Assembly: GCA_902783175.1 (NCBI GenBank)
Contig: CACZQA010000315.1
Span: forward strand, 1 to 11,362
DNA length: 11,362 nucleotides
DNA from: an uncultured Coriobacteriaceae bacterium
GTDB lineage: Bacteria > Actinomycetota > Coriobacteriia > Coriobacteriales > QAMH01
Direction: 5' to 3'
Each line of letters begins with the position of its first letter. Positions within the stretch are counted from its first letter, which is position 1. A program made the position numbers and the translations under genes. Below are positions 84 to 11,362 of this stretch, piece by piece. The notes under the pieces are model-generated. The model worked only from the letters and a program-made list of their open reading frames with translations. It was not told where the DNA came from and searched no databases.

Positions 84-110
84 GGCCTAAGCCTTCACGG
101 AGCTCAAGCC

Positions 111-270
111 TGCACGAAAACCGTGGCACTGCCACACATCCCACGTTTTTTGCGCGAGAAACGTGGCAGTGCCACAACTTTGGCGCATGCTGCGCGGGAA
201 CCGTGGCAGTGCCACACATCCCACGTCAACTGCGCGAGAAACGTGGCAGTGCCACACATCCCACGCGAGG
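111..270. repeat. Tandem array of four 40-bp palindromic repeat units
   Basis: Units start at 111, 151, 191 and 231, an exact 40-bp period. Each opens with TGCGCGAGAA or a close variant, then one variable base, then C and the palindrome GTGGCA(C/G)TGCCAC (123-135, 163-175, 203-215, 243-255). Units 1, 3 and 4 continue with ACATCCCACG; unit 2 diverges after the palindrome into a tail where GCGCA (183-187) pairs with TGCGC (191-195) across the junction with unit 3. The 5' CGTGG can also pair with the distal CCACG, giving nested alternative hairpins. The array sits between the 3' ends of two convergent genes. A fifth unit at 11229 shows that the family is dispersed. REP/BIME-like elements, a bidirectional terminator or a protein-binding array are all possible. 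Confidence 0.92.
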
Positions 271-7561: not shown

Positions 7562-10500
7562 ATGGCAGAAGAAGACATCCCCGGATGGGAAGAAATAAAG
7601 GCCGCGTCGCTGGGGCAGGGGCCCGCACCCCACACCTGCCGTGACGCCGGCACCTTCGTGCATCTCCACAACCACACGGAGTACTCGCTGCTCGACGGCT
7701 GCACCCGCCTGGGGCCGCTGTGCGAGCGCGCCAAGGAGCTCGGCATGCCCGCCGTCGCCATCACCGACCACGGCTACATGTACGGCTGCGCGGAGTTCTA
7801 CCTTGCCGCCATCAAGGCGGGCATCAAGCCCATCATCGGCTGCGAGATCTACTTCACGCCCGACTCCACGCTCTCGCGCGACAAGCGCCCCGAGCTCTAT
7901 CACATGATCTTGCTCGCCAAGAACAACGAGGGCTACAAAAACCTCATGCACCTCGTCTCCGAGTCCGCGGTCGACGGCTTCTACTACCGCCCGCGCACCA
8001 CGTTCGAGATGCTCAAGAAATACCACGAGGGGATCATCGCCACCTCTGCCTGCATTGCGGGCGTCATTCCCAAGTCCATCGACCGCGGCGAATACGAGGT
8101 CGCCAAGCAATGGGCGCAGACCTTCAGCGACCTGTTCGGCAAAGAAGACTTCTACATCGAGATCCAAAACCACGGCCCCGAAGTCACCACCGACAGCGGC
8201 CTGTCCGAGCGTCAGATCAACGACGTGCTCGTCCGCCTCGCCAACGAGTTGGGGCTGAAGGTCGTCGGCACCAACGACATCCACTACCTCAAGCAGGAAG
8301 ACGCCTATACGCAAGACCTCATGCTGTGCATCGGCATGGGCAAGCACGTGAGCGACACCAACCGCATGAAGTTCAAGAACGACCAGTTCTACCTTAAGAG
8401 CCCCGAGGAGATGGCCGAGGCGCTCAAGGACCATCCGGAGTGCCTGGCGACCTCGCTCGAGATTGCGGACAAGTGCAACGTCACCATCGAGTTCGGCAAC
8501 ATCATCCTGCCGCGCTACCCGTTCCTGAAAAAAGACGAGACCAACGAGTCGCTGCTCAAGGAGATGTCGCTGCGCGGCCTCGAGGAGCGCTACGGAGATT
8601 TGACCCAGCGCATGGACGTCATCGAGCGCTTCGAGCACGAGTACGAGATCATCTGCAAGAAGGGCTTCGCGGCCTACTTCCTGATCGTGCAGGAGTTTGC
8701 CAACTGGGCACGCGAGAACGGGATCGGTGTGGGGCCGGGCCGCGGTTCTGCCGCGGGCTCCATCGTGTCGTACTCCCTCGGCATCACGCGTTTCGACCCG
8801 CTCGAAAACGACCTGCTCTTCGAGCGCTTCCTCTCGCCAGAGCGCACCGAGATGCCCGATATCGATATGGACTTCGACGATGAGCGGCGCCTGGACGTCA
8901 TCCAGCACTGCCGCGACATCTACGGCTCCGAAAAGATCGCGCACGTCATCACCTACGGCAAGATGAAGGCCAAGCAGGCGGTCAACGACTCCGCGCGCGT
9001 GCTCGACTACCCCATCTGGAAGAGCCAGGCCATCTCCAAGATGATCCCCAACGATCCCAAGATGACGCTCGACAAGGCGCTGACGGGCAACCCCGACCTG
9101 CGCAAGGAGTACGAGAGCGACCCCGACACGCGCAAGATCATCGACTCGGCGCGCAAGCTCGAGGGCCTCACGCGCGGCGAGGGCGTGCACGCGTCAGCTG
9201 TCATCATCTGCCGCGATGCCGTCGCCGACTACGTCCCCGTCAAGCTCGATACCAAAGGCGGCGTCATCATCACCCAGTACGACGGTCACATGACCGCCGA
9301 CATGGGCCTGCTCAAGATGGACTTCCTCGGCCTGCGCACGCTGACGGTCATCTCGAAGGCGCTGCGCAACATCAAGGACAACTACGGCATCGACCTCGAC
9401 CTCGAGAAGACCAACTGGAAAACCGACGAGGGCGTCTTCAAGCTCATGGAGACAGGCGGCACCAACGGCGTGTTCCAGATCGAGTCGCCGGGCATGCGCG
9501 CGCTGCTCAAGCGCATGAAGCCCGATACCTACGACGACGTCGTCGCCGTCATCGCCCTGTACCGTCCCGGCCCACTGGGCGCGGGCATGGTCGACGACTT
9601 CGTCGACCGCAAGCAGGGGCGCAAAAAGATCGTCTACTACGACGAGCGGCTGAAGGACATCCTCGAGAGTACCTACGGCACGATCGTCTACCAAGAGCAG
9701 GTCATGCGCATCTCCATCGTCATGTCCGGCTTCACGCTGGGCGAGAGCGACAAGGTCCGCAAGGCGGTGGCAAAAAAGAAGATCGCCCTGATGAAGGAAG
9801 TCGAGCAGAAGTGGGACGACGGCAACGTCGAGACGATGGAGAACCACTGGCTCAACGGTGCCGTGCGCAACGGCTACGAGCGCGCGACGGCGCAGAAGAT
9901 CTGGGACGATGTCCTCGCCTTCGCCGAGTATGCCTTCAACAAGTCGCACTCTGCCGCATACGGCATCCTCACCATGCAGACGGCGTGGCTCAAGGCGCAC
10001 TATCCCAACGAGTACATGGCCTCGGTTCTGTCGAGCTATACGGGCAAGACGGACAAGATCGTCCACTACGTCAACGCCTGCAAGCAAGACGGCATCAACG
10101 TCCTGCCGCCTGACATCAACGAGTCCCGCAGCGACTTCACCGCTGTGGAAAACGGCGTGCGCTTCGGACTCGCCGGCCTGAAGGGCGTGGGCGAGAAGGT
10201 CGTCGAGATGATCATCGCCGAGCGCGAGGAAAACGGCCCGTTCTCCGACCTGTACGACTTCGTGTTCCGCGTGCCGGCCGACGCCTGCAACAAGCGCGTC
10301 GTCGAGGCACTGGTCAAAGGCGGTGCCTTCGACTCCACGGGCTACACACGCCGCCAGCTGTGGGCACTCCTCCACGAGGGCTCGCTGCTCGAGCGCGCGC
10401 AGCAGCGCCGCCAGGACAAGGAAGATGGCCAGACTTCCCTGCTCGATCTGTTCGCCGAGGTCGAAGACGGGGCAGACGACTCCGACATGGAGGACAAGAT

Positions 10501-11191
10501 CCCGCCGGCAGACGGCGTCGAGTGGGACCGCCTGCAGAAGCTCGAGTTCGAGAAGGAGGTCGTCGGCATCTACGTCTCCGACCACCCGCTCTCCCCGTAC
10601 ACCGAGCTCCTGAAGGCCAACTCGCATGCCCCGCTTTCCGAGGTCGACGACGAGGACCTGTTCCACGACACGTACACGTACGATTTTGCGGGCATGGTCG
10701 CGGGTATCCAGGTCAAGACCACGAAAAGCGGCAACAACATGGCCATCATGCAGCTCGAAGACTTGGAGTCGTCCATCGAATGCGTGCTGTGGTCGAAGAC
10801 CTGGGAGAAGTATCGCGACCTGCTCCAGAACGAGGGCGGCGTGGGCAATCCGATCGTCCACCTGCATGGCAAATTCGAGCGCAGCGACCGCGGCGTACAG
10901 GTGATCGTCAAGGACATCAACCCGCTGTCGCTCGAGGGGCAGGGCAGCAGGCGTGGGCCGAGCGCACTCACGATTCGCGTGCGCTCCGACAAGTTCTCGA
11001 ACTCGGTCATGTCGCAGCTCTCGAGTATCTTCGACAACTACCCCGGCGTGCAGCCGGTCACGCTGTTCATCGAGCAGGCGGATGGGCGCAAGTTCCGCGC
11101 CGAGCTGCCGGTCAACGTCAACTGCGCCTCGCAGGAGCTCATCACGCGCGTCGGCGAGCTCGTGGGGCCCAACTGCGTGGAGCTCGCGTAA
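7562..11191 (+). CDS. dnaE: DNA polymerase III alpha subunit (replicative polymerase)
   Basis: 1209 aa, full length, catalytic subunit of the chromosomal replicase. After about 30 extra residues comes the PHP domain (31-300). The nine metal ligands of active PHP domains appear present: H36, H38, D45, H70, E95, H114, C164, D239 and H241, which suggests built-in 3'-5' proofreading as in mycobacterial DnaE1. The polymerase core has GPGRGSAAGS (391-400), PDIDMDF (432-438) and the third catalytic Asp in KMDFLGLRTL (D587). Helix-hairpin-helix sequence GLAGLKGVGEKV is at 869-880, a probable beta-clamp motif QTSLL at 957-961, and the OB fold at about 1040-1120. ATG 7562 has GAGGAG (7547-7552) inside the preceding gene. 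Lack of an N-terminal epsilon-like exonuclease and the domain order exclude PolC. Confidence 0.98.
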   Translation: MAEEDIPGWEEIKAASLGQGPAPHTCRDAGTFVHLHNHTEYSLLDGCTRLGPLCERAKELGMPAVAITDHGYMYGCAEFYLAAIKAGIKPIIGCEIYFTPDSTLSRDKRPELYHMILLAKNNEGYKNLMHLVSESAVDGFYYRPRTTFEMLKKYHEGIIATSACIAGVIPKSIDRGEYEVAKQWAQTFSDLFGKEDFYIEIQNHGPEVTTDSGLSERQINDVLVRLANELGLKVVGTNDIHYLKQEDAYTQDLMLCIGMGKHVSDTNRMKFKNDQFYLKSPEEMAEALKDHPECLATSLEIADKCNVTIEFGNIILPRYPFLKKDETNESLLKEMSLRGLEERYGDLTQRMDVIERFEHEYEIICKKGFAAYFLIVQEFANWARENGIGVGPGRGSAAGSIVSYSLGITRFDPLENDLLFERFLSPERTEMPDIDMDFDDERRLDVIQHCRDIYGSEKIAHVITYGKMKAKQAVNDSARVLDYPIWKSQAISKMIPNDPKMTLDKALTGNPDLRKEYESDPDTRKIIDSARKLEGLTRGEGVHASAVIICRDAVADYVPVKLDTKGGVIITQYDGHMTADMGLLKMDFLGLRTLTVISKALRNIKDNYGIDLDLEKTNWKTDEGVFKLMETGGTNGVFQIESPGMRALLKRMKPDTYDDVVAVIALYRPGPLGAGMVDDFVDRKQGRKKIVYYDERLKDILESTYGTIVYQEQVMRISIVMSGFTLGESDKVRKAVAKKKIALMKEVEQKWDDGNVETMENHWLNGAVRNGYERATAQKIWDDVLAFAEYAFNKSHSAAYGILTMQTAWLKAHYPNEYMASVLSSYTGKTDKIVHYVNACKQDGINVLPPDINESRSDFTAVENGVRFGLAGLKGVGEKVVEMIIAEREENGPFSDLYDFVFRVPADACNKRVVEALVKGGAFDSTGYTRRQLWALLHEGSLLERAQQRRQDKEDGQTSLLDLFAEVEDGADDSDMEDKIPPADGVEWDRLQKLEFEKEVVGIYVSDHPLSPYTELLKANSHAPLSEVDDEDLFHDTYTYDFAGMVAGIQVKTTKSGNNMAIMQLEDLESSIECVLWSKTWEKYRDLLQNEGGVGNPIVHLHGKFERSDRGVQVIVKDINPLSLEGQGSRRGPSALTIRVRSDKFSNSVMSQLSSIFDNYPGVQPVTLFIEQADGRKFRAELPVNVNCASQELITRVGELVGPNCVELA

Positions 11192-11196
11192 CCGTT

Positions 11197-11233
11197 GCGC
11201 ATGCAGCGTGCGAGAGCCGCACGCTGCATGCGC
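11197..11233 (+). terminator. Perfect 16-bp-arm hairpin after dnaE
   Basis: Bases 11197-11212 are perfectly complementary to 11218-11233 with a 5-nt loop AGAGC, starting 5 bases after the dnaE stop. The stem is very stable, but no T-run follows, so it is not a classic intrinsic terminator; it may stop transcription with Rho or protect the 3' end. Its 3' arm merges into repeat copy 5. Confidence 0.7.
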
Positions 11234-11268
11234 GAGAAGCGTGGCACTGCCACGCATCCTGCGCGTGT
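11229..11268. repeat. Fifth, solitary copy of the 40-bp palindromic repeat
   Basis: It begins with TGCGCGAGAA (11229-11238), identical to array units 2 and 4, followed by the palindrome GTGGCACTGCCAC (11241-11253) and CATCC. After that it diverges slightly from the array units. It lies between the converging ends of dnaE and the minus-strand gene ending at 11295, the same context as the four-unit array. Confidence 0.9.
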
Positions 11269-11294
11269 GGTGCGGGGTCTAGCGGTGTCTTCGC

Positions 11295-11362
11295 TTACAT
11301 GAGCTTTGTCATGGTGGCGAGCAGGATGCCGGCCGCTATCGCGAGCATGCCGATGATGCGGC
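11295..11362 (-). CDS. C-terminal end of a probable membrane protein (partial)
   Basis: Reading leftward from the window edge, an open frame ends at TAA (11297-11295). The visible 21 residues, RIIGMLAIAAGILLATMTKL plus a final Met, are strongly hydrophobic and look like a last transmembrane helix. No family can be named from this. It converges on dnaE with the hairpin and repeat copy 5 between the two. Confidence 0.5.
   Translation of the reverse strand, partial: RIIGMLAIAAGILLATMTKLM

Follow-up and report, generated by a model that had tools for sequence, protein, structure and literature searches.

A short palindrome found five times near the two ends of the window, the 11,362-nucleotide stretch of DNA analysed here, belongs to a family of 86 units at 35 loci across the draft genome. 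The units are oriented and lie mostly at gene ends. From direct observations of copy number, low core variation, fixed spacing with scrambled spacers, lack of outer-arm covariation and position, we infer protein binding: at close to even confidence, the arrays are rows of oriented sites, in phase with the DNA helix, to which a sequence-specific DNA-binding protein attaches where transcription units end. That these putative binding arrays act as insulators or roadblocks is a more doubtful step, and the likelier outcome is that they do not.

Palindromic units of the window

The window is contig C315 of draft genome G000 (1,615,141 bases, 327 contigs, 82.9% complete). As the sequence-only reading had described, four units follow one another at an exact 40-bp period (111-270) and a fifth stands at 11229-11268. 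Their positions and flanks are as follows.

1 to 82, + strand: partial gene, 3' end, left of the first array; stop at 80-82 (by eye; below gene-finder size)
111 to 150, + strand: unit 1; core 123-135, centre C
151 to 190, + strand: unit 2; core 163-175, centre G; right arm AACTTTGGCG atypical
191 to 230, + strand: unit 3; core 203-215, centre G
231 to 270, + strand: unit 4; core 243-255, centre G
277 to 990, - strand: gene, 3' end towards the first array (gene finder)
7562 to 11191, + strand: dnaE-like gene, 3' end towards unit 5 (gene finder)
11197 to 11233, no strand assigned: perfect 15-bp inverted repeat with a 7-nt loop; arms 11197-11211 and 11219-11233 (by eye)
11229 to 11268, + strand: unit 5, single; core 11241-11253, centre C
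11295 to 11362, - strand: partial gene, 3' end, right of unit 5; frame ends at 11295-11297 (by eye)

The switch of the centre base between C (units 1 and 5) and G (units 2, 3 and 4) was also described correctly. The block TGCGCGAGAA, which had been given as common to the units, is exact in three of the five, with TGCACGAAAA in unit 1 and TGCGCGGGAA in unit 3; CATCC follows the core in four, and unit 2 has AACTTTGG in its place. Conservation on one strand had been taken to give the units an orientation. They do have one, but the outer parts are not purely one-stranded and form imperfect inverted repeats, GCRCGRGA ... TCYCRCG. Both gaps look convergent, as had been proposed, with the two partial frames at the window ends judged by eye only.

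The gene at 7562-11191, which we take to be dnaE-like, has matches with 62-79% identity in five of six same-family genomes. The inverted repeat lies just past this gene and overlaps the left arm of unit 5; no T-run was seen at it, and the 84-nt stretch that contains it (11192-11275) folds at -58.2 kcal/mol (z -6.5).

A dispersed family with a nearly fixed core

The exact core GTGGCA(C/G)TGCCAC (GTGGCASTGCCAC) occurs at 74 sites on 31 contigs of the whole draft genome and the reversed pattern at none, so the window palindromes are not a product of chance. The idea of a dispersed, oriented family at gene ends is upheld by these counts, which go well beyond the five copies to which it could have been confined.

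The consensus of 82 full units is tGCRCGRGAAnc-GTGGCA-S-TGCCAC-acaTCYCRCG. Each unit is a nested dyad: an inner dyad of 13 bp is framed by half-sites CRCGRGA that lie roughly a helical turn outward. The left and right arms are slightly different, which gives the unit its direction. The centre base is C in 53 units, G in 28 and A in one; a swap between C and G that leaves out T is what a flip of the dyad would be expected to produce. Divergence from the consensus rises from 14% in the arms (212 of 1476 bases) to 55% in the spacers (271 of 492), and in the core, centre left out, it is 1.2% (12 of 984), a value biased downward because most units were first found by their exact core.

An arms-only model was run as a check on this bias over 239,846 bases (the window plus 40 contigs). 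At 20 bits or more it gave 64 exact-core and 11 altered-core hits, with none in the reversed control, and so brought in 11 units in which either the centre or one or two core bases are altered. A genome-wide search for the full unit with up to three mismatches yielded two further units, on contigs C144 and C256. With one assembly duplicate removed and altered copies included, the total is 86 units at 35 loci, a count that would miss altered units more than three positions off the consensus outside the contigs scanned with the arms model. Altered cores thus exist and are few: with up to two mismatches, the core pattern occurs at 154 places per strand of the whole draft against 173 for the reversed control, and half-decayed cores are not in excess. 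One and the same array, with an identical flank, closes contigs C5 and C116 (L032 6256-6370 and L043 3961-3984), so that one site was counted twice. Several further contigs stop at or near arrays, and the arrays seem to break the assembly.

Spacing between neighbouring units is fixed. Among 51 neighbour spacings below 200 bp, 45 are exactly 40 bp and six exactly 51 bp; the two pitches are 11 bp apart, about one turn, and both would keep the units on nearly the same face of the helix. Neighbours have the same orientation in 47 of the 51 pairs. Their spacer letters are 33.7% identical, a level that shuffling of units among arrays nearly matches (32.8%, p 0.40). The centre base is alike in neighbours at a frequency of 0.863 (0.525 expected) and arm likeness is slightly raised (0.760 vs 0.717), which makes an old duplication likely. 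The arrays probably grew by such duplication, their spacers having been scrambled since with the length unchanged.

The longer spacers and the array edges carry G tracts. Inspected by eye, the 51-bp spacers have GGG at positions 29-31 in unit direction in five of six cases and GGGG at 28-31 in four; the sixth spacer (L041) has the GGG equivalent on the other strand only. Over 64 array edges, 46 outward GGGG starts fall at positions 24-36, where the background rate would give about 3. These C/G tracts at the edges are loosely placed.

Position of the arrays relative to genes

No core lies inside a gene predicted by our home-made gene finder, which worked without annotation as reference and does not pick up genes that are short or partial. 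In one case (L053) the edge of an array runs 10 nt into the end of a gene. The spread through coding regions that would speak against a gene-end family was therefore not seen. By machine count, 11 of 34 arrays (the C116 duplicate included) lie in convergent, 9 in tandem and 2 in divergent gaps, and at contig ends 10 have a neighbouring 3' end and 2 a 5' end. A hand tally of the 35 loci, in which C116 was merged with C5, the window gaps were taken as convergent and C144 (divergent) and C256 (tandem) were added, gives 14 convergent, 10 tandem and 3 divergent loci, with 6 contig-end cases at a 3' end and 2 at a 5' end. All Fisher tests were made on the machine counts, not on the hand tally.

Half of the arrays with both flanks known are in convergent gaps (11/22), compared with 12/110 of the other gaps of at least 15 bp (p 9e-5), on contigs picked for holding arrays together with the RAYT contig and nine others. 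The bias stays when gap length is controlled, at 11/22 vs 7/82 for gaps of at least 77 bp (p 4e-5) and 9/20 vs 6/68 for gaps of at least 100 bp (p 6e-4). Eight of the nine tandem arrays lie within 100 bp of a 3' end; in the remaining one (L048) a T-run terminator separates the array from the gene. Arrays are also found 3' of RNA genes, namely an RNase P RNA (L045) and a tRNA (L060). The 19 flanking proteins scanned are of mixed kinds, four of them with no Pfam match, and one divergent-gap locus adjoins an LrgA-family gene.

A RAYT-type gene and its REP family as internal control

The sole Y1_Tnp gene above cut-off in the 83%-complete draft (L042:2993-3745, - strand, E 4.3e-11) has units of another palindromic family, CACGAGGGGCCGTGGGTATCG, at its flanks: one side carries two of them, the opposite side a single inverted one. 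Units of this family are located on L042 at 1311, 1345, 2938, 2970 and 3970. The contig has no GTGGCASTGCCAC and one match to it with two mismatches. In a genome of this completeness a second RAYT could be missing. The CACGAGGGGCCGTGGGTATCG family occurs at 47 places genome-wide (23-base pattern, up to three mismatches) and as 51 units in 34 clusters on the contigs analysed (21-base pattern). Twelve of 14 direct neighbours less than 250 bp apart are spaced at 32 bp, the others at 76 and 129 bp, and three inverted pairs are 34 bp apart. The twelve pairs spaced at 32 bp have 11-nt spacers that are 72% alike from one pair to another.

The two families differ in position. Of 28 CACGAGGGGCCGTGGGTATCG clusters with both flanks known, 1 is in a convergent, 21 in a tandem and 6 in a divergent gap; the convergent share of 1/28 against 11/22 for the arrays (p 1.7e-4) means that tolerance of repeats alone does not explain where the arrays lie. 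What flanks the RAYT-type gene of the 83%-complete draft, and where the arrays lie, led us to reject a RAYT-linked REP as their origin. The arrays are dispersed, intergenic and palindromic in many copies (86 units, 35 loci), and in this look the REP/BIME reading offered earlier was apt; a RAYT link, which such a reading would bring with it, is not supported, since the sole Y1_Tnp gene found has a different flanking family. The position table of the 82 full units has no conserved GTAG or CGTC tag beside the dyad, and the GTGG in the units is part of the paired dyad, not an unpaired head. Fixed distances in REP arrays have already been reported, in the passages available of PMC3116915; together with the favoured spacing of CACGAGGGGCCGTGGGTATCG, this means that fixed spacing alone can come from copying, and the argument for binding sites therefore rests on the scrambled spacers.

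RNA folding and terminators

The eight outer pairs of the units are Watson-Crick in 64.6% of cells, compared with a mean of 66.8% for arms dealt anew between units, and 99.2% of 2000 shuffles reach the observed value. Arm covariation is likewise absent when G-U pairing on either strand is counted, and when the set is thinned to 34 units, roughly one for each array. A structured RNA with compensating outer arms was rejected, as re-dealt arms pair slightly better than the real ones; this test covers the outer arms, the nearly fixed core not being amenable to it. Among 11 stretches folded, the z-score runs from -0.65 (weak) to -8.1 (very strong). Strong folds include the L058 stretch (-31.8 kcal/mol) and window 229-268 on the minus strand (-22.2 kcal/mol), and window 109-148 folds no better than shuffles (z -0.65 and -0.96). 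Rfam searched at gathering score, with 15 sources, placed no family on the arrays.

By a simple hairpin-plus-T-run rule, a terminator precedes the array at 4 of 41 facing 3' ends (L035, L048, L054, L062). In gaps of at least 77 bp the rule finds one at 3/38 ends before arrays and at 10/76 other 3' ends (p 0.54), so the data establish neither that arrays replace T-run terminators nor that they follow them. T-run terminators being rare at other gene ends too, this places less weight on the binding reading and more on an RNA reading. Inside the arrays, a hairpin-plus-T-run match occurs on at least one strand in 12 of 33, compared with a mean of 10.5 (range 10-13) in spacer-shuffled arrays, where 8 of 100 shuffles reach 12; in the position table of the 82 full units, the core has no T-run regularly next to it. 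Read inward, the 15 nt that adjoin the array contain C at 0.42-0.53 and G at 0.15-0.28. The first 40 nt past the facing stops have only a slight C excess (mean C minus G 0.033 vs -0.004). Rho entry regions are C-rich.

Alternative explanations

It is possible, though we doubt it, that the arrays are an RNA element. Transcription would enter the units from either side, and the resulting hairpins would halt it or shield mRNA 3' ends; this would be a bidirectional terminator that lacks a regular T-run. The place of the arrays at gene 3' ends and in convergent gaps fits such an element, as do the strong folds at L058 and at window 229-268. Fits also come from the T-run terminators found at only 4 of 41 facing ends, which leave the rest in need of another way of ending, although the T-run rule serves other 3' ends no better (10/76 vs 3/38). 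The C-rich inward edge resembles a Rho entry region, and T-run matches lie in 12 of 33 arrays, yet hardly more than in spacer-shuffled ones. According to part of PMC3733652, REPs prefer gaps that are convergent or tandem and are believed to be transcribed. Other observations fit poorly: some units fold like shuffles (window 109-148), compensatory pairing of the outer arms is absent on either strand, a T-run terminator already stands before the array at L035, L048, L054 and L062, and a hairpin has no need of an exact 40- or 51-bp pitch. The fixed pitch with its scrambled spacers and the absence of covariation between the arms thus weaken the bidirectional terminator suggested by the sequence-only reading; this terminator keeps in its favour the scarcity of T-run terminators ahead of arrays.

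An untagged, REP-like selfish repeat is unlikely. Its transposase would have been lost or left unassembled, its copies would settle where they do least harm, and the fixed core would be the recognition sequence of that transposase. Many dispersed, intergenic, palindromic copies restricted to one lineage are what it predicts; PMC3733652, in the part available, records families that lack GTAG or CGTC tags and a preference of REPs for tandem and convergent gaps, and by eye the gap after dnaE in three relatives holds other repeats. Against it, the only Y1_Tnp gene found has another family at its flanks and no array unit on its contig, the REP family of the same genome has no convergent preference (1/28), and REP spacers are 72% alike between loci whereas array spacers are 34% alike between neighbours around a nearly fixed core. 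Operators of an ordinary transcription factor with a large regulon are most improbable: a dyad with a nearly fixed core and three divergent loci, one beside the LrgA-family gene, agree with operators, but only 3 of 35 loci are known to be divergent, eight of nine tandem cases lie no more than 100 bp from a 3' end, and the 19 flanking proteins are of mixed kinds, four with no Pfam match. Among the three possibilities first raised for the window (a REP/BIME-like family, a bidirectional terminator and a binding array), the binding array fits best. Counted against it are the 3 of 35 loci in divergent gaps and the likely old duplication.

Distribution in other genomes

A 14-base core pattern is absent from six same-family genomes, so any function would be lineage-specific; the relatives compared are of the same family, with no other genome of the same genus listed. 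Among 396 genomes of the class, 17 have a match, the genome under study included, and the other 16 have one site each; a reversed control matched in more of these genomes than the core pattern did. An extended pattern searched in one genome for each of 84,980 species, a set that may leave out records very near the window, gave one archaeal match, and viral contigs gave 0 and 2 matches to two patterns. Two of the same-family genomes, G003 and G006, have Y1_Tnp genes and lack the core pattern.

In G004, G005 and G006 (L095, L096 and L097, reverse strand), the gap after dnaE contains different repeats, as judged by eye. They comprise a hairpin repeat, GTGCACCTT, a short direct repeat that includes GTGAGAGTTATGTAATTC, and a longer repeat block with an N run. 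The G004 block was not listed by the tandem-repeat finder. A repeat shared between these gaps and the array family was considered and dropped, as two motif counts did not tie them together. In G003 (L075-L084), 13-mers such as CGGTGCCTGACCC and TGACCCCCTGACA occur in 6-7 copies within 200 kb and are perhaps the REP of that genome.

A proposed model of phased binding sites

Under the binding reading, the family would consist of double-stranded DNA sites for a putative sequence-specific protein that docks as a dimer on the dyad GTGGCA-S-TGCCAC and may also touch the CRCGRGA half-sites about one helical turn outward on each side. Adjoining dimers would stand next to one another at a pitch of 40 bp, or of 51 bp with one turn more, and face the same way round the helix. 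Arrays covered by the protein and bounded by C/G-tract edges would lie just past gene ends, often between converging genes, and could act as two-sided insulators or roadblocks against read-through; alternatively, they may provide anchor points in transcription-free gaps. The full scheme, a lineage-specific putative protein that forms a two-sided roadblock or insulator where converging genes end, on dedicated landing pads of fixed pitch, is speculative and on present evidence improbable.

Dispersed bacterial palindromes are usually classed as REPs and then left. We know of no well-described dedicated bacterial system for separating converging transcription units. Here, one genome holds both a RAYT-linked REP control and a family whose core, pitch and position look constrained, and this allows a direct test of the idea that repeats of this sort can, in some cases, be binding sites that keep converging transcription units apart.

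Comparison with known systems

The literature searched did not contain GTGGCACTGCCAC. Among the matches listed for GTGGCAGTGCCAC, TGGCACTGCCA or TGGCAGTGCCA, all papers were on other subjects by title and none had GTGGCACTGCCAC; the terms Coriobacteri, intergenic and palindromic repeat together found nothing in the literature searched.

A close named site is matS of MatP, GTGACRNYGTCAC, of which the part of PMC6907758 available describes 23 sites in the Ter region about 35 kb apart. Like the array core it is a 13-bp dyad with a one-base centre, and the array core is one transition off in each half; matS is widely spread in Ter, by the same partial account, whereas the arrays have a short pitch and lie at gene ends. 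Neither the MatP model (PF06303) nor the ParB_N model, tried for the binding protein, gave a hit in the 83%-complete genome. PF06303 hit E. coli only among 14 control genomes, and a MatP/matS reading was rejected: the core is near matS, yet no MatP was found in the draft. The likeness to matS may serve as a lead only. ParB_N has hits in five of six same-family genomes, and the missing hit here may be due to incompleteness.

Untagged REP-like families are already known, in M. tuberculosis, Deinococcus, Bordetella, Brucella and Cyanobacteria, as a portion of PMC3733652 reports. They are palindromes that lack a terminal tag, as the arrays are, a likeness by description and not by sequence; the array consensus was not found in the literature searched. 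REPINs, as far as PMC3116915 was available, are inverted half-elements around a centre that form tandem groups, some at fixed distances (72 and 112 bp) and nearly identical including their flanks. The array units are also inverted halves round a centre in ordered tandem groups; they differ in spacers that are as unlike within arrays as between them, and in the shared orientation of 47 of 51 neighbours. REP/BIME elements are described in parts of PMC2817692 and PMC3733652 as short, dispersed, intergenic palindromes, often clustered and regularly spaced, and often downstream of genes or between convergent ones; the second source has REPs favouring tandem and convergent gaps and thought to be transcribed. 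The arrays share the short, dispersed, intergenic palindromes, the clustering, the regular spacing and the place at gene ends. BIMEs alternate, whereas array neighbours keep one orientation in 47 of 51 pairs and have scrambled spacers, and the arrays are far more biased to convergent gaps than the RAYT-linked family of their own genome.
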